Source: Porphyromonas levii DSM 23370 (GTDB taxonomy: Bacteria; Bacteroidota; Bacteroidia; Bacteroidales; Porphyromonadaceae). From it: a stretch of 45,247 nucleotides of DNA. Each line of letters starts with the position of its first letter. Position 1 is the stretch's first letter. The stretch lies in assembly GCF_000379925.1 (NCBI RefSeq), contig NZ_KB904233.1:1-45247 (forward strand), in the 5' to 3' direction. Both the position numbers and the translations under genes were made by a program. The notes beneath the pieces are model-generated. The model had not been told where the DNA came from. It did not search any database and saw only the letters and a program-made list of their open reading frames with translations. This document shows positions 35,920-45,247 of this stretch, piece after piece.

Positions 35920-36569
35920 AGCTGGGTGAAGGTGTGGTCGATGTGGTAAATGCGAGTGGAGAGGTCTTTGAGATGCTCTATATTGTGCGATACCATTATC
36001 AGCGCAGTGTGCTGCTGTAGGGTAGGGAGCATCTGGTGGAGGGTCTCTTCGAAAGTGCGATCTACATAGGTGGTAGGCTCATCAAGAATCAGTAGGGTGG
36101 GTTCGCTCACGATAGCACGAGCTAGGAGTACGCGCTGGAGCTGTCCGCCCGATAGTGCTCCTATGGCGCGATGAGCGACTTCGAGCATGCCCACTTGCTG
36201 TAGTGCTTCATGTGCTTTTGCCCTTTGCTCCTTGGTGGAGTACAGACTATTATGAGTGAATAGCCCACTCAAGACCACCTCCTCTACCGATATGGGGAAA
36301 GCCTTATCCAGACGGTTCTGCTGCGGCATATATCCGATATTGAGTTGGTCTATCTGCTGCCCTTCGGGGGTATAGTAGGTGATACGCCCCTTACGGGGTA
36401 TGATGAGCCCTAGCAAAGCACGGACAAAAGTGGTCTTCCCCGCACCATTAGGACCGGAAAGACCGATGAAGTCGTGGGGATAGAGCTCGAAGTCAAGCCC
36501 CGTTAGGATACTCGGCTCATCATCGTAGCCGAGCTCCAGTTTCCTCGCTATCAATATAGGATGGCTCAT
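35916..36569 (-). CDS. Metal ABC transporter ATP-binding protein (ZnuC-like)
   Basis: The nucleotide-binding subunit has Walker A GPNGAGKTT (near 41), a Q-loop (GYMPQQNRLD), signature LSGGQLQRVLLARA, Walker B LLILDEPTT, and the switch histidine in VSHN. At 217 residues it is compact. Overlap by one base with the metal-binding lipoprotein gene marks them as one transporter. A permease gene is missing from the neighbourhood. Confidence 0.9.
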   Translation of the reverse strand: MSHPILIARKLELGYDDEPSILTGLDFELYPHDFIGLSGPNGAGKTTFVRALLGLIIPRKGRITYYTPEGQQIDQLNIGYMPQQNRLDKAFPISVEEVVLSGLFTHNSLYSTKEQRAKAHEALQQVGMLEVAHRAIGALSGGQLQRVLLARAIVSEPTLLILDEPTTYVDRTFEETLHQMLPTLQQHTALIMVSHNIEHLKDLSTRIYHIDHTFTQL

Positions 36570-37423
36570 TATCGCTTCCTAAATACCTCTATAAGGCGTT
36601 TCATCTCTGCTGTCCAGTCTTCCGCAAGCGGCTGGATGGTTAGAGGTGCTATCCCTAGTTGGCGAGCTATGTTTTCGGCATTCTTTGCGTCGAACTCCTC
36701 TTGTATCAATACAGCACGTGTGTCCATTGCCTTTGCGGTTTCTAGTAACTGTACTAAGTGACGGGGGGTAGGCTCTAGCCCATTCTCCTCTATCACCAAC
36801 TGGGTTAAGCCCCATTCACTAGCGAAGAGGGATAGGGAGGGGTGGTAGATGACGAAAGCGCACGAATCGCTCTCCCCGAATACCTCGTGGGCGAGGGCTT
36901 CGACCTCGCCAAACTTGGGGGTGAGATGGCTCTCGTAATTGGCGCGTAGCTCTGCTTCTTTTTCGGGGAATATCTCGATAGTAGCCGCTAGGATAGCTTC
37001 TGCCATAGCTTTGCCGCCCTGTAGCGAAGTCCAGTAGTGCGGGTCGCCATGGATATGTGTGTGTTCGTGACCTTCCTCATGCCCATGGATGAGGTCGTGA
37101 GGTAGCCTTTCCGCAAGGTTGATCACGGCAACACTATCGGGTAGTGCATTGATCCACTGTTGCTCAAAAGGCAGAGTGCCGATAGCAAAGTAGCCTCGTG
37201 AGTCTTGGAGCTTAGCGATGTTTCTTGGGGTAGGGTCGTAGTACTCAGGGTTATTACCGTAAGGTACGAGCACGTGAACCTCGGCGAGGTCGCCCACGAT
37301 ATGCTTCAAGAAGTACTTCTGGGGCAATAGGCTCACCGATAGGATGGGCTTGTGACTCTCCTTGGACGGGGTGCAGCCTGTGGCGAATAGGGCTACAAGG
37401 AGTAGTGTAAGTAACTTATTCAT
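36569..37423 (-). CDS. Zinc/manganese-type substrate-binding lipoprotein (ZnuA family)
   Basis: The lipobox FATGC (Cys17) follows a signal peptide. The cluster A-I fold is supported by SLLPQKYFLKHIVGD, NNPEYYDPTPRNIAKL and a His-rich loop (HGHEEGHEHTHIHGDPHYW, near 113-131) typical of zinc-binding members. The permissive ligand set and loop favour zinc over manganese. It binds metal on the cell surface or in the periplasm. Its start overlaps the cation-exchanger stop by 4 bases. Confidence 0.88.
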   Translation of the reverse strand: MNKLLTLLLVALFATGCTPSKESHKPILSVSLLPQKYFLKHIVGDLAEVHVLVPYGNNPEYYDPTPRNIAKLQDSRGYFAIGTLPFEQQWINALPDSVAVINLAERLPHDLIHGHEEGHEHTHIHGDPHYWTSLQGGKAMAEAILAATIEIFPEKEAELRANYESHLTPKFGEVEALAHEVFGESDSCAFVIYHPSLSLFASEWGLTQLVIEENGLEPTPRHLVQLLETAKAMDTRAVLIQEEFDAKNAENIARQLGIAPLTIQPLAEDWTAEMKRLIEVFRKR

Positions 37424-38382
37424 ATTGAGTTGGTGATAAGTACAGCGTTGTAAGCGATAAAGAGAAGTAGCATAATCAGCCCTTCGGGACGTTTGATCTC
37501 ACGTTTGCCCCAGAAGAGTGCCATAGCAAACGCCATGATTGTAGCAATCAACTGCATCCAGATATCGAGAGTAGTAAACTGGAGGTGCTGCAATGGGTGA
37601 ACGACGCCCGAGATACCGAGCACGAAGAAGATATTGAAGATATTGCTCCCAATTACGTTGCCCACAGCGATACCAGTATTCTTTTTGAGTGCTGCGACTA
37701 CCGAGGTGGCTAGCTCGGGTGCAGAGGTGCCCCAAGCCACTAGGGTGAGCCCAATCAGGGTGTCGCTTACTCCTAGTTTCTTGGCTATGAGCGAAGCATT
37801 GTCCACAAATAGACCGCCACCATAGATGAGCCCTGCTAGCCCTACGATGATGAGCAATACATTTAGCGCCCAGTGCTTCTCGCGCTCGGCGGGTGCCTCT
37901 GTCTCCTCTCTATTTTGCCGTCCCATATACATGGTGTAGCCGAGGAAGAGCAATCCAAATAGGATGAGTATCAAAGCCTCGGCACGTGAGATAGATGATG
38001 GTGCGCCATCGAGTGCGGGGTCGGAGACGAAGATCATCATCACCGTGGCGGCGAGGATAGATATGGGGATGTCGAACCGGATGGAGTTGCGCTGCACCGG
38101 GATGGGATACACCACGGCACATAGTCCGAGGGTGAGTAGGATATTGAAGATATTGCTTCCGATCACATTGCCTACCGCAATGCCTCCATTGCCACCGATA
38201 CTACTGAGTACGCTCACCGATAACTCGGGAGCGGAGGTGCCGAAAGCCACAATCGTAAGCCCTATGATGAGCTGAGGGATCTTGAACCTCCGAGCTATCG
38301 CTGCCGCACCATCGGTAAGGAAGTTGGCACCAGCCAAGATGAGTGCCAGCCCAACCACTACTAAAGCAATCTCTAACCACAT
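37420..38382 (-). CDS. Calcium/sodium antiporter (CaCA family, YrbG-like)
   Basis: The inner-membrane exchanger has ten or so hydrophobic helices with two inverted repeats. Each holds the alpha motif: GTSAPELSVSVLSS and GNVIGSNIFNI in the first half, GTSAPELATSVVAA and GNVIGSNIFNI in the second. These supply the ion-binding Glu and Asn residues. At 320 residues it is standard. The ion is not certain. It is translationally coupled to the downstream metal-binding lipoprotein. Confidence 0.92.
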   Translation of the reverse strand: MWLEIALVVVGLALILAGANFLTDGAAAIARRFKIPQLIIGLTIVAFGTSAPELSVSVLSSIGGNGGIAVGNVIGSNIFNILLTLGLCAVVYPIPVQRNSIRFDIPISILAATVMMIFVSDPALDGAPSSISRAEALILILFGLLFLGYTMYMGRQNREETEAPAEREKHWALNVLLIIVGLAGLIYGGGLFVDNASLIAKKLGVSDTLIGLTLVAWGTSAPELATSVVAALKKNTGIAVGNVIGSNIFNIFFVLGISGVVHPLQHLQFTTLDIWMQLIATIMAFAMALFWGKREIKRPEGLIMLLLFIAYNAVLITNSI

Positions 38383-38389
38383 AATCCTA

Positions 38390-38944
38390 TTAGTCCAAAT
38401 ATGCGTACTCGAGGGTGGTCACCGAACCATACTCAGGTACCCCTACAAAGAGCTCTTCTAGCCCTATCAAACCCTGACAAAGGCGAGCACTATTGATGAC
38501 CCCTCCGTGGCAAAAGACCGCCACCCTGCGGTAGCGCTCTCTCCTCACTTCTTGTACAAATGCCCGCACTCTTTCGATTAGTTGGTCCACCGTCTCGCCA
38601 CTAGGCGGAATTGCCTCACCCTTAGCATCTGCATACTTTTCGGGTTGCTCCTTCATAAGTGCGAATACCTCCGTCCACGGTTTTAGTTCCCATTCGCCAA
38701 AGTTGCGCTCCATGAGGCGTGGGTCTCGTGTGGCTATATCGTCGTAGCCACAGAAGATACAGAGATCCTGTGCCCTCGAGAGGGGGCTCGTGAATACTGC
38801 ATCATACTTTCGCCCTTCCAGCCTATGGTGTACCACCGCTGCCTCGTCGGCAAACGTATCAGCTACCTTGAGGTCGGTCTGCCCATAGCAAGTCGCCCCT
38901 GTGATGTTTAGTGAAGTGTGTCTAATCCAGTCTATTCTCAACAT
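38390..38944 (-). CDS. Histidine phosphatase family protein (CobC-like)
   Basis: The phosphohistidine motif reads WIRHTSL near residue 8, in the RHT form of alpha-ribazole phosphatases. The second catalytic histidine is in VFCHGGVI near residue 149, and TSPLSRA and ERNFGEWE also fit. At 184 residues it matches CobC. Without other cobalamin genes nearby the substrate is uncertain. The start overlaps the S4 gene stop by one base. Confidence 0.82.
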   Translation of the reverse strand: MLRIDWIRHTSLNITGATCYGQTDLKVADTFADEAAVVHHRLEGRKYDAVFTSPLSRAQDLCIFCGYDDIATRDPRLMERNFGEWELKPWTEVFALMKEQPEKYADAKGEAIPPSGETVDQLIERVRAFVQEVRRERYRRVAVFCHGGVINSARLCQGLIGLEELFVGVPEYGSVTTLEYAYLD

Positions 38945-39294
38945 TAATATTCTTCTTCGTAATTCTTGCCGTGGCGCTTCTTGCGGTTGTCCTTCCTTCC
39001 CTTGCGTAGCTCCTTGCTCTTAGGGTTGTCGGAGAAGTTCTCTTCCGCTTTCTTGTGGCTTCCATACTTCTCATCGGTCTGGCGCTCAGCTGCCTCACGG
39101 GCAAACTTCCTAAATAGTCCCTTCAGAGGGATCGACACATCATCGAGGGTTACCCTGTCCTCTACCGAGGCTTTGTCGCCAATGCCAGCGGTCTGGTCGT
39201 TTACCTTGATACGTCCTTGACGAAGTAGCTCCTCTGCATCCTTTCGTGTGTACTCGTAGTACTCACTCACAATACGACTAATGCGTACCTCCAT
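38944..39294 (-). CDS. S4-domain RNA-binding protein
   Basis: The first 60 residues (RISRIVSEYYEYTRKDAEELLRQ, then GRIKVNDQTAGIGDK) form an S4 fold. The last 45 residues are strongly basic and Lys-rich (KELRKGRKDNRKKRHGK), likely RNA-binding and disordered. No catalytic domain follows, so it is not a pseudouridine synthase. A role in ribosome assembly or heat-shock response, as for Hsp15-type proteins, is a family inference. Confidence 0.8.
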   Translation of the reverse strand: MEVRISRIVSEYYEYTRKDAEELLRQGRIKVNDQTAGIGDKASVEDRVTLDDVSIPLKGLFRKFAREAAERQTDEKYGSHKKAEENFSDNPKSKELRKGRKDNRKKRHGKNYEEEY

Positions 39295-39311
39295 ACTATT
39301 GGATTAAATAG

Positions 39312-40235
39312 TTACTGATATTTATTGAAAATTGATTCCTTCATCGCCTCTGCTGTCTCCCTAGGAGTGGCAAGAGGACTAATATATTCTATCTCAAATC
39401 CATTGCGCTCCATCCCTCTCGCCCACGTCATCTGTCGTTTGGCAAACTGGTGTATCGCTGTCTCTAGCCCTCGGTGCATCTCCTCGTAGCTGAGTTTATC
39501 CAGTAGGTAGAGCGTTACGAACTTATACTCTAGTCCGTAGCGAATGAGTGCATCGGGCTCCACTTGCTCCAAGAGCCCCCGCACCTCATCTATCATCCCC
39601 TTTTCTAGTCTTGCCAAGAGTCTTCTCGAGATTCGCTCTCGGCGTACCTCACGGCTTACATCCACACAGAAGATAGGGCCTCTCAGGGGCGCCCGCTCTT
39701 CTACCTCCACTTCGCCCGCAAGTGCCAATTCTATGGCACGCACTAAGCGCCTGCTATTGTGGCAGTCTATTCCCTCCAAACTGCCACCTGCTGCCAATAG
39801 CCTAGCTTGGAGTCCCTCTACTGAGAGGGCATCCAGCTCGGCACGTAGCTTGTGGTCTATAGGCGCTTTGGGCATCTTATACCCTCCGAGGACGGCTGTT
39901 ATGTAAAGTCCGGTACCACCACAGAGTATCTTAGGGGTCTCTTGGGGAAGGGCATCGAAAGCCATGTAGAAGTCCCTCATGTATCGGTGTAGGTTGTACT
40001 GCTCGCCAGCCTCCGCTACATCAATCATGCGGTAGGGGACAGAGTAGCCGCCCACCTGATACTCCGAGAGATCCTTGCCTGTGCCGATATCCATGCCACG
40101 GTACACTTGGCGCGAGTCTCCACTAAAGAGTACCGCACCAAGCATCTCTGCCAACTGCACAGCGATAGAAGTTTTACCGCTGGCGGTTGGTCCATAGATG
40201 GTAATGATATCGATGCCGAGCGGCAGAGGTTGCAT
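39312..40235 (-). CDS. miaA: tRNA dimethylallyltransferase
   Basis: It adds an isopentenyl group to A37 of tRNAs that read UNN codons. The P-loop is GPTASGKTS (near 15). The catalytic aspartate follows in FSGDSRQVYRGMDIGTGK, then CGGTGLYITAV. QFAKRQMTWARG near the C-terminus is the usual RQxTW anchor. At 307 residues it is normal. Its start abuts the preceding gene without a gap. Confidence 0.93.
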   Translation of the reverse strand: MQPLPLGIDIITIYGPTASGKTSIAVQLAEMLGAVLFSGDSRQVYRGMDIGTGKDLSEYQVGGYSVPYRMIDVAEAGEQYNLHRYMRDFYMAFDALPQETPKILCGGTGLYITAVLGGYKMPKAPIDHKLRAELDALSVEGLQARLLAAGGSLEGIDCHNSRRLVRAIELALAGEVEVEERAPLRGPIFCVDVSREVRRERISRRLLARLEKGMIDEVRGLLEQVEPDALIRYGLEYKFVTLYLLDKLSYEEMHRGLETAIHQFAKRQMTWARGMERNGFEIEYISPLATPRETAEAMKESIFNKYQ

Positions 40236-41144
40236 TTACTTCCCGAGTAAATTCTGTGGATAGGTACCCTCGTCGGCGAGCTTCTGTAGCTTAGCTACAA
40301 CATCGGGACGGTCATTGGCATAGGTGACACCAAACCACTTGGCAGGGGTGTCGAGTACCTTGCAAGTAGATGTACCATTATTAATAAGTTGGTTGACCAC
40401 GAAGGGGATGTAAAACTCACCCTTCTCGCTATTGATATTTTGCTCTAGGAAAGAGACAAAAGCCGCTTCGGAGTGCTGGAAGTAGTCGGGCGTAAAGCCC
40501 CACATATTCATTGATACAGGGGTATGATCGTCTATGGCCACTTTCTTGCCGTGCTCATCGGTGAAGACAATCTCGCCATCTACCCTCTGCACATCGGTAC
40601 GCTCTACTACGCCAGTGAGGAAGCCCTCCTCATTGGTCTCGCATACACCACGGGCTACAGTGCCGCTCTCGCTGAGCGTATTGCCTACACGATAGCCTAC
40701 CATGCAATACTGGTTGGTAGTGCCCTCCATACGGCGTAGTTCTTCGGCAAGAACCTCGAAACTCTCACGTCCGTAGAAGTCGTCGGCATTGATGACCGCA
40801 AATGGCTCCTTAATCACATCACGCCCCATGAGTACAGCGTGATTGGTACCCCAAGGCTTGGTACGACCCTCAGGGCAAGTGAAGCCCTTGGGTAGGTCGT
40901 TTACAGCTTGGAATACTATCTCTACTGGTAGAAGATGCTCGTACTTGCTGGCTACCTTGGTACGGAAATCCTCCTCAAAGTCTTTGCGAATCACAAATAC
41001 CACCTTGCCAAACCCAGCCTTCACTGCGTCATAAATTGAGTAGTCCATAATGGTTTCTCCACTAGGTCCTACGCCATCTAGCTGCTTCAGACCGCCATAA
41101 CGGCTGCCCATTCCTGCTGCCAGTACAAATAATGTTGGTTTCAT
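40236..41144 (-). CDS. Sugar-1-phosphate nucleotidyltransferase
   Basis: The N-terminus LFVLAAGMGSRYGGLKQLDG is the nucleotide-binding signature of NDP-sugar pyrophosphorylases. AVINADDFYGRESF carries the metal-binding aspartate and VSMNMWGF is the sugar-binding strand. At 302 residues, it makes an NDP-sugar for glycan synthesis. The exact sugar cannot be read. It is first in the eight-gene minus-strand run toward the ABC ATPase. No clear promoter box precedes it. Confidence 0.85.
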   Translation of the reverse strand: MKPTLFVLAAGMGSRYGGLKQLDGVGPSGETIMDYSIYDAVKAGFGKVVFVIRKDFEEDFRTKVASKYEHLLPVEIVFQAVNDLPKGFTCPEGRTKPWGTNHAVLMGRDVIKEPFAVINADDFYGRESFEVLAEELRRMEGTTNQYCMVGYRVGNTLSESGTVARGVCETNEEGFLTGVVERTDVQRVDGEIVFTDEHGKKVAIDDHTPVSMNMWGFTPDYFQHSEAAFVSFLEQNINSEKGEFYIPFVVNQLINNGTSTCKVLDTPAKWFGVTYANDRPDVVAKLQKLADEGTYPQNLLGK

Positions 41145-41240
41145 CTTTTACTTTGCTTATAACTCTTTCTAAACAGTGCGTAAAGCTACACAAAAAAAGT
41201 GATAATGGAATGATTATTAGTAGGCTCTCCACTCTTTTAA

Positions 41241-41567
41241 GGAGTGTTAGAGCAATATGAATGCCCCGAGATCATCAACTCAGACTAAGGCGTACAGTAT
41301 ACGAGCAAGAAGTGGGTAGAGCTACTAGAGGAGAAAGGAATGAGGATATGTATGGATGGAAAAGGACGTTGTAAGGATAATATTTGGATAGAACGCTTCT
41401 GGAGAAGCATCAAACAGGAACATATCTATCTTAATCCAGCCCATACAGTCTCAGAACTAAGGCAGGGGATAGGGAAGTGGATAAAGTTCTATAACTATGA
41501 GCGCCCCCACTAGAGTATCACCAAGCTACTCCCTGCCATGGAATATGGAATAGTAGTAGCTGCATAA
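41241..41567 (+). pseudogene. IS3-family transposase (OrfB) remnant
   Basis: One frame gives the C-terminal integrase core: EIINSD-stop-GVQYTSKKW, MDGKGRCKDNIWIERFW, HTVSELRQG, FYNYERPH-stop-SITKLLPAM. It includes the second Asp and the final Glu of the DDE triad. Two stops interrupt it, TAA at 41286 where families have CAA (SDQG) and TAG at 41511 where they have CAG (RPHQS). The first Asp and N-terminal part are absent. It is inactive. Remnant IS sequence probably continues to about 41667, where the SPASM fragment begins. Confidence 0.85.
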
Positions 41568-41667
41568 CAATAACTAATAACTATGTAAAGAGAAAGAAAA
41601 TGTGTACTTTTGTTACGGTGAAAGAAAAAAACACTAGCCCGTTGTCTAAAAATGGGGAGTACTATAC

Positions 41668-42087
41668 ACAGTAATACAAAACTTTAAGGATGAGAAACTA
41701 AATATTGTACAACTACTATTTAGTAATGTTTATTCTTCTTGTTATGCAGATAGGCGTCATAGTGCTGTTATTAACTATAATGGGGATGTTTACAAATGTA
41801 CAGCAATTGACTTCCTCAATACTACAAGAGATGGTTATTTAAGTGAGGATGGGAATATAATTTGGGAAAATGATAGCCTAGAGAAACGAATGGATAGTAA
41901 GTTCAAAAATGCTCCATGTCACAAATGTCGTATTCAGCCAATATGCAATGGAGGCTGCAGTCAAAAAGCACTTCATTATGCCCATAAGGACTATTGTATA
42001 CATGATTATAATGAAAGCAAGAAAGATAAAGTTATACTTGATAAGTTCTACTCATTACTTCAAAAGAAAGTGAAATCATTTATATGA
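41668..42087 (+). pseudogene. C-terminal SPASM fragment of a radical SAM peptide maturase
   Basis: The frame is open from a stop at 41647 to the TGA, giving about 140 residues. The SPASM cysteines are seen in INYNGDVYKCTAI and in CHKCRIQPICNGGC (C-x2-C-x5-C-x3-C), with a last Cys in KDYC. The N-terminal radical SAM barrel with its CxxxCxxC cluster is missing; IS3 debris lies where it should be. Such proteins modify ribosomal peptides in Bacteroidales. The first in-frame ATG is at 41890, inside the SPASM domain, so any product would be inactive as a maturase. The end overlaps the next start by 4 bases, which indicates an original operon. Confidence 0.8.
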
Positions 42088-44468
42088 CAAAGCTGGATTT
42101 ACTTTACTCAAAAATGGAACGTAAAAAACAAAGCGTATCACTTGTAAAGTCTGTGAGAGGTCTTTGGATACTCTTATTGGCGGGAATAACTATGGGGGTC
42201 GGTCCAAGTGCCTTTGCTCAATTCCAAATCACTGGACGACTACTCTTTGGCTCCGACTCTACTTCTGTCGCTGGTGCGTCGGTCTCCCTCTATGAGGGTG
42301 ATCGATTGGCAGAGGGGACGATAAGCAAGGAAGACGGAAAATTTGTACTCCATCGGGGTACTCGCCAATCGACACAAGTAAGCATCAGTATGCTTGGTTG
42401 TGCACCTATGGTGATTTCGATAAAAGGTGCTAGTAAATCATTAGACTTGGGCAACCTATATCTAGACGACACACATCAATTAGACGAAATCGTCGTAACC
42501 GCCCAAAGGGAGAATGTACAGAGGATATTAGTTTTCCCCAAAAAACATGAGCTTGTCGCTAGTCCCGATGTGCTGAGCTTGCTTAGGAATATGGGTCTTA
42601 GAGGACTAAGCATTAGTCCAATGTCACAGACGGCATTGGTGTATGGCAAGGCGGTACAGTGGCAAGTGAATGGTGTCCCAAAGTCGCGTGAGGAAATCTT
42701 CAATATTATCCCAGAGAAGATTTTGCGTATTGAGTACTCCGATATGCCAGGTGCGAGGTATCTAGACAAAGGGATCGGTGGAGTGGTCAATATCGTACTA
42801 AAGGAGCAGAATGATGGGGGCTCCTTCAGGGTATCTGCTCAGCCAGCACTGACGACGGGTTATTTCAATGGCAATACAGGCTTTAGCTACAATATCGGCA
42901 AGCATGCCCTCACACTGGGCTACAACCTTTCGTATAGAAATTATAAGAGTAGGCTGGTAGAGCTCGATGAGCGCTTTATCGGCAAAGGAGAGGAAGTGCA
43001 TAGGGTGAAGATGCCAGTGGCTAGCCCATTTGGCTATAGCGACCACAACCTCAGTCTCTCTTATCTGTATCAGATGACCCCCAACAGACAGTTTTCGGCC
43101 ACTTTTAGCGGGAAGCTTTTGGACACTCACTCCATAGAGCAATCCCATGTAATAGAGACCCATAAGGCAGATTACTTTAGGACCGATTACTCTAAGGGTA
43201 GGTCTGTGGCTCCAACGCTCGACCTATACTTCTCCAATCTGTTTGATAATGGTGGTAAGCTCGAACTTAATGTCGTGGGGACCTATAGGCAGGGCAAATA
43301 TGAGTCTAGTGTCTCTGACAAGATGGGTGGAGCAGTGAAGCAAGAATATACCAATCCAGTAGAGAGCCATCGTAAAGCTCTGATTAGCGAGGTGTATTAT
43401 ACTCAGCAGTTTAGACCCTCTCTAGTCTTCACTACGGGTGTGCAAAACCATCTTGGACACTCGGAGAATACCTACTTCTCGCCAAGCAAATTTACAGATG
43501 TCTTGAGCGAAAATAATAATTATCTGTATGCTCAATTGTCGGGCTCAGCAAATAAGTTTCAGTACTCTGTGGGTACAGGGGTAAAAGCGTATTGGGTCAA
43601 AAGCTCTACCAACCAGAAGAGCTATTACAAAAATCTGAGTACCTTGACCCTGATGTACTCCTTGAGTAATAAAGCACACCTCCGCTTGGCAAGCTCCTAT
43701 ATGCCTAGTTTGCCTAGTTTGAGCCAGCTCTCAGAGGTGTCTCAGCGCTACGATGACTATTTAGTACATAGCGGTAACCCACAGCTCTCCGCTGCCCAGT
43801 ATGTATATAATAGACTGGGGCTATACTACTCCTCAGAGCATTTTGCACACGACCTAGAGGCGACTTACTACCGAATTTGGGATCCTATTCTTTATGATGT
43901 CTCCTATAATAGAGAAAAGAACTATTTCCTTTCACACGCAGTTAATGGCAGGTATAGCCAGGTGCTAGGGCTGAGCTGGAACTTAAAGATGAAGAACCTC
44001 TGGGATTTCCTGACCATTTATAGTACGGTGGGATATGATTTCCAAAACTCCGATACAGGAGTAGATAAGTTTAGCCTCAATTCGCTCTACTGGGACATCT
44101 CTGCAATACTACAATACAAGGAATGGTCGCTTGCCTATTACTATACCCAGCCGAAGAGATCGCTGTATAATAACGTCGTCTCAAGGGGTGAAAACTCATC
44201 CCAATTGACTTTGATATGGAAGCGTAATAGGCTCACCCTATATGCAGCCCTCCACTTCCCATTTACTAAGAACGGTGCAACCTACGAGTCGGAGCTCCTC
44301 TCAAGGGTCAATCCCAAGACAAGCTACGTGAGCATCTTGGATAATCGTAATATGTTTTCACTAGGCCTCTCCTGGAATATAAGCTTTGGGAAGCGACTAA
44401 AGACCAGCCAAAGAGGTCTCTACAACACCGACTCCGACAATAGCATGGTCTCTACCTCTAGTAGGTAA
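42084..44468 (+). CDS. TonB-receptor-like outer-membrane beta-barrel protein
   Basis: After a signal peptide (ending SAFAQ, about residue 46) comes a carboxypeptidase-regulatory-like beta domain (ITGRLLFGSDST to LGNLYLDD, about 48-130). LDEIVVTAQ then leads into a plug-like domain, with VNGVPKSREEIFNIIPEKI and GGVVNIVL. The remaining 530 residues alternate as transmembrane strands rich in Tyr and Ser. The barrel seems to end at LGLSWNISFG, and about 25 polar residues follow. In peptide-export loci such a protein would be the outer-membrane partner or receptor. An alternative start is the ATG ten codons later. It is intact. Confidence 0.82.
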   Translation: MTKLDLLYSKMERKKQSVSLVKSVRGLWILLLAGITMGVGPSAFAQFQITGRLLFGSDSTSVAGASVSLYEGDRLAEGTISKEDGKFVLHRGTRQSTQVSISMLGCAPMVISIKGASKSLDLGNLYLDDTHQLDEIVVTAQRENVQRILVFPKKHELVASPDVLSLLRNMGLRGLSISPMSQTALVYGKAVQWQVNGVPKSREEIFNIIPEKILRIEYSDMPGARYLDKGIGGVVNIVLKEQNDGGSFRVSAQPALTTGYFNGNTGFSYNIGKHALTLGYNLSYRNYKSRLVELDERFIGKGEEVHRVKMPVASPFGYSDHNLSLSYLYQMTPNRQFSATFSGKLLDTHSIEQSHVIETHKADYFRTDYSKGRSVAPTLDLYFSNLFDNGGKLELNVVGTYRQGKYESSVSDKMGGAVKQEYTNPVESHRKALISEVYYTQQFRPSLVFTTGVQNHLGHSENTYFSPSKFTDVLSENNNYLYAQLSGSANKFQYSVGTGVKAYWVKSSTNQKSYYKNLSTLTLMYSLSNKAHLRLASSYMPSLPSLSQLSEVSQRYDDYLVHSGNPQLSAAQYVYNRLGLYYSSEHFAHDLEATYYRIWDPILYDVSYNREKNYFLSHAVNGRYSQVLGLSWNLKMKNLWDFLTIYSTVGYDFQNSDTGVDKFSLNSLYWDISAILQYKEWSLAYYYTQPKRSLYNNVVSRGENSSQLTLIWKRNRLTLYAALHFPFTKNGATYESELLSRVNPKTSYVSILDNRNMFSLGLSWNISFGKRLKTSQRGLYNTDSDNSMVSTSSR

Positions 44469-44537
44469 GTATTAATCATTAATAATTGCAATTGAGATGA
44501 AACAGAAAAATCTCTCTTAAAATTACAGGCGCAGGTG

Positions 44538-45247
44538 ATGCAAGAGATAGAATATATCAAACAGAAGGATGCGATGGATTGTGGACCAGTGTGCTTGGCT
44601 ATGGTGGTTAAGCATTATGGTCGCCATCCTGACTTGGAGCAAATCCGTAAGGATTGTGCTTTAGGTAAGGAGGGGGTCTCTTTATTGGGGATTAGTAAGG
44701 CGGCAGAGAAGAGGGGGTTGCACTCGCTGGGTGGTCGCATCACTTTTGAGACGCTAGCAAATGAAGCCCCACTTCCCTGCATCGCTCACTGGAATCAGAA
44801 TCATTTTATAGTTGTTTATAAGGTCAAGAGACTTCGTAAGGGTAATTATAGGGTCTATGTCGCAGATCCAGGAAAAGGATTGTTCACTTACACCAAAGAG
44901 GAGTTTTGCGAGCATTGGATTAGTACCAAGACTAATGGCGAAGAGAAAGGTATAGTCCTACTTTTAGAGCCGACAGATGAGTTTTACAGCCAAGAAGTGA
45001 CTGATGGCGGAAAGTTCGAGAAAGGTAATCGGCTGACCTTCCTTTGGAGCTATGTCAAGAAGTATCGTAGGTACTTTGGGCAAATTATACTAGGCCTATT
45101 GCTGGGTTCGCTGATACAGCTTGTTTTCCCATTCCTTACTCAGGCTATAGTCGATACTGGTATAGGTGGGCGAGATATCGGTTTTATTTGGCTGGTGCTA
45201 TTGGCTCAGCTGATGTTGCTCTTTAGCCGTACGGCGATTAGCTTTAT
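44538..45247 (+). CDS. C39-peptidase ABC exporter (5' part, cut by the window end)
   Basis: No stop occurs in the 236 complete codons from this ATG to the edge. An N-terminal C39 cysteine-peptidase domain has Cys15 in MDCGPVCLAM, the histidine in HWNQNHFIV (near 88) and the aspartate in VADPGKG (near 112). The first transmembrane helices follow (IILGLLLGSLIQLVFPFLTQ). The ATP-binding domain is outside the window. These exporters cleave leaders after Gly-Gly and secrete bacteriocins or modified peptides. It lies 69 bases after the barrel gene. Its cognate peptide is not seen here. Confidence 0.92.
   Translation, partial: MQEIEYIKQKDAMDCGPVCLAMVVKHYGRHPDLEQIRKDCALGKEGVSLLGISKAAEKRGLHSLGGRITFETLANEAPLPCIAHWNQNHFIVVYKVKRLRKGNYRVYVADPGKGLFTYTKEEFCEHWISTKTNGEEKGIVLLLEPTDEFYSQEVTDGGKFEKGNRLTFLWSYVKKYRRYFGQIILGLLLGSLIQLVFPFLTQAIVDTGIGGRDIGFIWLVLLAQLMLLFSRTAISF

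Follow-up and report, generated by a model that had tools for sequence, protein, structure and literature searches.

Ribosomally synthesized and post-translationally modified peptide (RiPP) clusters of Bacteroidales were surveyed in 2023, Porphyromonas also being covered (PMC10352776). In that survey, the clusters combine a radical S-adenosylmethionine (rSAM) enzyme with a SPASM domain, an outer-membrane protein gene, a C39 peptidase-containing ABC transporter (PCAT) and precursors with a Gly-Gly (GG) leader motif. No membrane fusion protein is reported there for BGC6-9, and the survey asks how clusters with an exporter and an outer-membrane gene work without an adaptor. The locus studied here lies at the right end of a stretch of 45,247 nucleotides (the window) of Porphyromonas levii DSM 23370. 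The window is the entire contig C31 of the genome (2.51 Mb, 124 contigs), its last position, 45247, being the contig end. Compared with the surveyed clusters, the window locus is decayed, the rSAM front and the precursor being missing, and in its relatives the exporter is followed by a candidate for a short adaptor.

The end of the window is very probably a decayed paralogous copy of a RiPP cassette found in oral and gut Bacteroidales; it would have lost its front after an IS3 insertion, and intact copies would include a short adaptor of HlyD descent. Taken alone, the locus is an ordinary case of a known RiPP system that has become pseudogenised.

The remnant cassette in the window

The preliminary description of the stretch had placed a SPASM tail, a receptor-like outer-membrane barrel and a C39 exporter in tight order, and family searches and structure modelling recovered the same arrangement (Table 1).

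Table 1. Features of the remnant cassette and its left flank, with positions in the window.
Feature	Position	Strand	Basis
5'-truncated IS3-family remnant: transposase (rve) end with right terminus, a stop interrupting the frame	41239..41666	+	rve_3 E 8.4e-15; alignment with other copies
C-terminal SPASM part of rSAM peptide maturase, pseudogene	41668..42087	+	TIGR04085 49.2 bits (cut-off 27); Pfam SPASM 23.6 (cut-off 21.5); 38% identity to ends of full-length rSAMs
TonB-dependent-receptor-like outer-membrane protein, 794 aa, open	42084..44468	+	Open reading frame; ATGA overlap with SPASM frame; AlphaFold model
PCAT, N-terminal part	44535..45247	+	Peptidase_C39 E 5.8e-32; start GTG 44535 or ATG 44538; cut by contig end
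Nucleotidyltransferase (named by eye), left flank, outside cassette	40236..41144	-	Present in 12/12 genomes of the genus

The SPASM tail comprises the last ca. 139 codons, the final third, of an rSAM/SPASM maturase and retains all seven SPASM cysteines. The closest rSAMs in the loci compared were C-terminal parts from P. uenonis (38% identity, E 7e-27) and P. endodontalis (38%, E 5e-22), and according to Pfam both of these relatives have the radical SAM core. Ahead of the tail in the window the CX3CX2C core was not found and the IS remnant stands there, in agreement with the earlier claim that the catalytic half of the enzyme is gone. The tail was counted as a remnant because no start codon is listed for its frame before 41890, which lies within the domain. 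Also the precursor gene had been described as missing, and none was recognised by eye among open reading frames (ORFs) of at least 50 aa at 36000-45247, the only part of the window searched.

A decayed IS3 transposase had been proposed to occupy the place of the lost parts, and the frame 41241-41567, with stops read as X, indeed matched rve_3. The boundaries of the remnant were set by alignment with other copies, the right limit being the terminal repeat ATGGGGAGTACTATA. The rve end and the right terminus are there, the left part is gone and an internal stop is present. The right end of the IS touches the rSAM sequence of the window at 41666, and likewise another rSAM gene in contig C8 and a barrel gene in contig C83.

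For the barrel, Pfam gave only a sub-threshold CarboxypepD_reg-like result. Its AlphaFold model (pLDDT 73.9) matched TonB-dependent receptors at E 1.4e-22 (Cir, FepA, BtuB), altogether with 274 PDB matches at E ≤ 0.001, Cir first, and the matches listed were outer-membrane transporters or receptors, such as FepA, BtuB, ChuA and FrpB. The plug and barrel fold of a TonB-dependent receptor is present in the model, its strands not having been counted. The motif DEIVVT at residue 134 we take to resemble a TonB box. A search of genome contigs with the barrel as query gave no relative. The overall fold is shared with TonB-dependent receptors such as Cir bound to microcin V (PDB 9nn6); the barrel differs from Cir in having only 16% identity to it and in being encoded within a peptide-export operon.

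Both the barrel and the exporter had been described as open, which holds for the barrel, whereas for the exporter it can be said only of the 237 residues that precede the contig end. Across 233 residues it is 94% identical to an exporter of a relative (L062:2256-4463), which carries the ABC membrane and ATPase domains before which the window exporter is cut. The Cys/His/Asp triad of the C39 peptidase is present as C16, H90 and D111. Three other P. levii contigs (C96, C111 and C94) carry, close to their start, the 3' part of an exporter gene that leads into the short gene described below, and none of them can be tied to the window. The 3' piece and the short gene have identical coordinates and an identical frame break in C96 and C111 (L039 and L136), possibly because of assembly duplication.

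The IS3 remnant had 17 matches in the P. levii genome, the window counted, and the same right end was present in 13 of those examined. Eight of these 13 are cut off by a contig end, and the left part is missing from all of the other five, four of these five pointing into a nearby co-oriented gene (contigs C98, C124, C8, C83, C31 and others). Such right ends could be exapted. An outward promoter in the IS end was considered, and as only a -7-like box was seen by eye, no claim is made. On the left flank, a kdsA-like gene (named by eye) adjoins the nucleotidyltransferase in four relatives (L124, L127, L133 and L134). At 41145-41238 of the window there is no kdsA-like gene, the best match in the P. 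levii genome being only 26%. Loss of kdsA was rejected as proof of a deletion, because a match of at least 66% was present in only 6 of the 12 genomes of the genus.

Intact cassettes and the short protein after the exporter

Several paralogous cassettes are present in the P. levii DSM 23370 genome. Contig C62 (L029) includes an rSAM gene, a barrel, an exporter with some unread bases and then a 163-aa protein, contig C116 (L032) a GG peptide, an rSAM gene, a barrel with a 4-base overlap and a broken exporter, and contig C83 (L031) an rSAM gene, YcaO, a barrel and an exporter cut by the contig end. Elsewhere in the genus, L062 and L073 have an rSAM gene, a barrel, an exporter and the short protein, with a GG-peptide ORF ahead of the rSAM gene in L073. 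Thus the suggested membership in a Bacteroidales system for modifying and exporting GG-leader peptides was borne out by relatives that keep the order rSAM, barrel and PCAT, in some cases preceded by a GG peptide. An intact upstream rSAM gene and a precursor, which the preliminary description proposed to look for in relatives, were also found: an open full-length rSAM gene precedes the barrel, the C39 exporter or both in the paralogs L029 and L032 and in L062, L073, L099, L101, L110 and L114, several of these with GG-leader ORFs ahead of it. When 14 candidate precursors were tested, two scored above the curated cut-off (L043, TIGR04149 31.8, cut-off 25; L094, class I lanthipeptide leader 32.7, cut-off 22), the other 12 remaining below it or without a score. 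Other maturases also occur ahead of the same exporter, namely LanB together with LanC (L107) and a LanB C-terminal domain (L086).

An alignment-based scan of species genomes, which needs one of two sequence patterns and so misses distant forms, found a short protein of ca. 160 aa in 37 loci of Porphyromonas, Prevotella, Hoylesella, Hallella, a Phocaeicola metagenome-assembled genome and uncultured kin. In all 37 loci PCAT sequence ends at most 150 bases upstream of the short protein, L116 having only the first 37 model positions. According to our own hidden Markov models (HMMs), 28 of the 37 loci have barrel sequence and 19 have rSAM sequence upstream, counts that include fragments as well as the tails of L106 and L116; the rSAM model undercounts, L105:3772-5352 being called radical SAM by Pfam. 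Full-length HlyD was found in none of the 37 loci with a two-sequence HMM in the stretches fetched, where several contigs end near the gene. This check covered ORFs of both strands in one pass and the plus strand in a second, and the same HMM did detect a split HlyD elsewhere (L145).

The N-terminus of the short protein includes a membrane segment of HlyD type, and its first 64 residues aligned with full-length HlyD in hhalign (E 2.7e-6, probability 88.6). In the genus of P. uenonis the short-protein profile matched 9 of 26 genomes, with PCAT sequence adjacent in eight of the nine loci, one of the eight being the split full-length HlyD of L145. Among 247 Bacteroidales genomes, 61 gave altogether 78 profile matches. 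Of these, 49 were in frames of HlyD size (427-495 aa), mostly to the N-terminal part of the model only, as judged by eye, and 29 in frames of less than 400 aa, some of which may be broken full-length HlyD, as L145 is. Ten of the 29 reach at least model position 118 (by eye), six of them in the P. levii genome and G200. An order-wide count of short adaptors was rejected, the short frames possibly including broken full-length HlyD. The profile alignment and the matches in frames of HlyD size support HlyD descent of the N-terminus.

No Pfam family was found in three copies of the short protein tested and nothing over the NCBIfam cut-off in the one copy tested, and the best PDB sequence match was a ribosomal protein (E 0.038). 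The structure model (162 aa; pLDDT 78.4, pTM 0.59) consists of a helix, a membrane-length helix and a small beta domain, and no coiled-coil hairpin was found in its secondary structure. Its fold matched MacA (Z 8.0), AcrA (7.4) and BesA (7.3), with ZneB, MexA and EmrA also within Z 6.7-8.0. The short protein shares the N-terminal membrane segment and the gene position after the exporter with HlyD-type adaptors (e.g. L035:5999-7315), but differs from full-length HlyD in its size and in having no hairpin in the model. Adaptors without a hairpin have a precedent in BesA of Borrelia (PMC8277102); the partner of BesA is an RND pump, whereas the short protein comes after a PCAT. Most likely the short protein derives from HlyD and would act as an adaptor that lacks the hairpin, and it is a candidate for the adaptor missing from the clusters with an exporter and an outer-membrane gene in the 2023 survey. 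A YcaO query for the P. gulae cluster of that survey gave no match in 26 genomes. Titles and abstract openings searched in the open-access literature did not report a short adaptor in such clusters.

Genes like those of relaxases, TraG or ParA, recognised by eye without a family search, adjoin the cassettes L079, L080, L081, L035 and L029, which suggests that the cassettes travel on conjugative elements. Stand-alone C39-like proteins of 182 and 167 aa were present next to small GG-leader ORFs in L076:8128-10154 and L083:12-1962, respectively. The small ORFs have hydrophobic tails by eye, and the two are possibly class II-like bacteriocin loci in Porphyromonas.

Decay of the cassettes and alternative readings

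Core-less or front-less rSAM genes precede the barrel also in three other loci, of G009 (L062:955-1269), H. shahii (L106) and P. pallens (L116). The first has 104 residues identical to the C8 rSAM and directly follows a GG-peptide ORF, its barrel being cut by the contig end, and in L116 most of the exporter is lost as well. Intactness was tallied by eye in 40 barrel-exporter pairs. These comprise 31 of the 37 named loci (L086, L087, L090, L096, L098 and L115 were dropped as having no upstream barrel or being cut) and nine Porphyromonas pairs (L029, L030, the first of L031, L032, L062, L075, L078, L079 and L081). From Porphyromonas were dropped L073, as a copy of L109, L035, L074, L082 and L042, which have no pair, and the window, L080 and the second pair of L031, which are cut by an end. 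Both genes were intact in 26 pairs. The exporter was broken and the barrel intact in 11 (L030, the first of L031, L032, L078, L094, L095, L100, L102, L108, L112 and L116) and the reverse was found in three (L103, L113 and L121, the last on a 21-bit fragment). Barrels thus tend to outlast exporters (sign test p = 0.057), some of the named loci being near-identical cassettes and frame breaks in drafts possibly being errors.

It is possible, and we hold it tentatively, that the barrel is kept for itself as a receptor for uptake, sensing or immunity toward the peptide of kin, in strains without a working maturase or exporter. The excess of broken exporters beside intact barrels and the receptor fold with its plug are consistent with this, as are the nearest barrels, of G002 (ca. 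41% identity) and G005 (ca. 37%), which are intact without an adjacent exporter. However, the tally gave p = 0.057, was made by eye from draft assemblies and includes partly related loci (L102 and L103 share genes), and most pairs have both genes intact. The G005 barrel has no rSAM upstream in the DNA fetched, and the G002 contig ends ca. 0.4 kb upstream of the barrel, which makes this reading slightly less likely. Rather unlikely in our opinion is a further double-membrane route for the modified peptides of oral and gut Bacteroidales, in which the PCAT and the hairpin-less adaptor would be joined by the barrel as a gate replacing TolC, the barrel serving also as a receptor and hence being kept in decayed cassettes.

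The junctions could also be assembly artefacts, the contig joining unrelated pieces through IS or exporter repeats, in which several contigs of this fragmented assembly do end. This is improbable, as the IS copy of the window differs by 2 to 20% or more from the other matches, the rSAM tail and the start of the barrel have no second match in the 12 genomes searched, and these two are linked by the ATGA overlap of an operon. It is hardly credible that the SPASM tail works by itself, as a partner without a core in the manner of pseudo-rSAM proteins: its cysteines are intact and SPASM-only or core-less genes precede the barrel in the second copy of L062, L106 and L116, but no start codon lies ahead of the domain, the cut points of the other core-less tails differ and in L116 the exporter is mostly gone.

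Some observations weigh against the decayed RiPP cassette itself. No precursor remains beside the SPASM tail, and the DNA fetched downstream of the nearest barrels, those of G002 and G005, contains no C39 gene. The exporter past residue 237, the short protein and everything further to the right lie outside the window. A frame break interrupts the exporter pieces of C96 and C111, which are no clean continuation of the window exporter, and in C94 exporter residue 454 is preceded by other sequence that looks by eye like a transposase; because these contigs give no clean continuation, the window exporter may be broken further on, too. Structural matches to the short protein were weak, the best Foldseek E being 0.018, and six-stranded barrels unrelated to adaptors equalled or exceeded the adaptor scores, up to Z 8.7.

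Proposed history and significance

The decayed-cassette reading would imply the following history. A full cassette would have consisted of a GG-leader precursor, an rSAM/SPASM maturase, a TonB-dependent-receptor-like barrel, a PCAT exporter and a short adaptor. An IS3 element would have been inserted into the rSAM gene, and the left part of the IS, the rSAM front and any precursor would then have disappeared, perhaps through a single deletion with one end next to the nucleotidyltransferase gene. The genes left in the window may serve a different peptide, as the preliminary description suggested. A transport function of the cassette is inferred from the protein families. In intact copies the rSAM enzyme would modify the precursor, the C39 domain would cleave off the leader behind the GG motif and the ABC part would carry the peptide across the inner membrane. 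The short protein would act as an HlyD-derived adaptor without a hairpin, and at the outer membrane the barrel would be either an exit or a receptor.

The persistence of barrels where biosynthesis or export has been lost makes the question of exit or receptor testable. The main interest is in the module of exporter and short protein, which was reached by following the decayed locus: the exporter and the tiny candidate adaptor form a constant module common to different maturation enzymes, rSAM as well as LanB/LanC.

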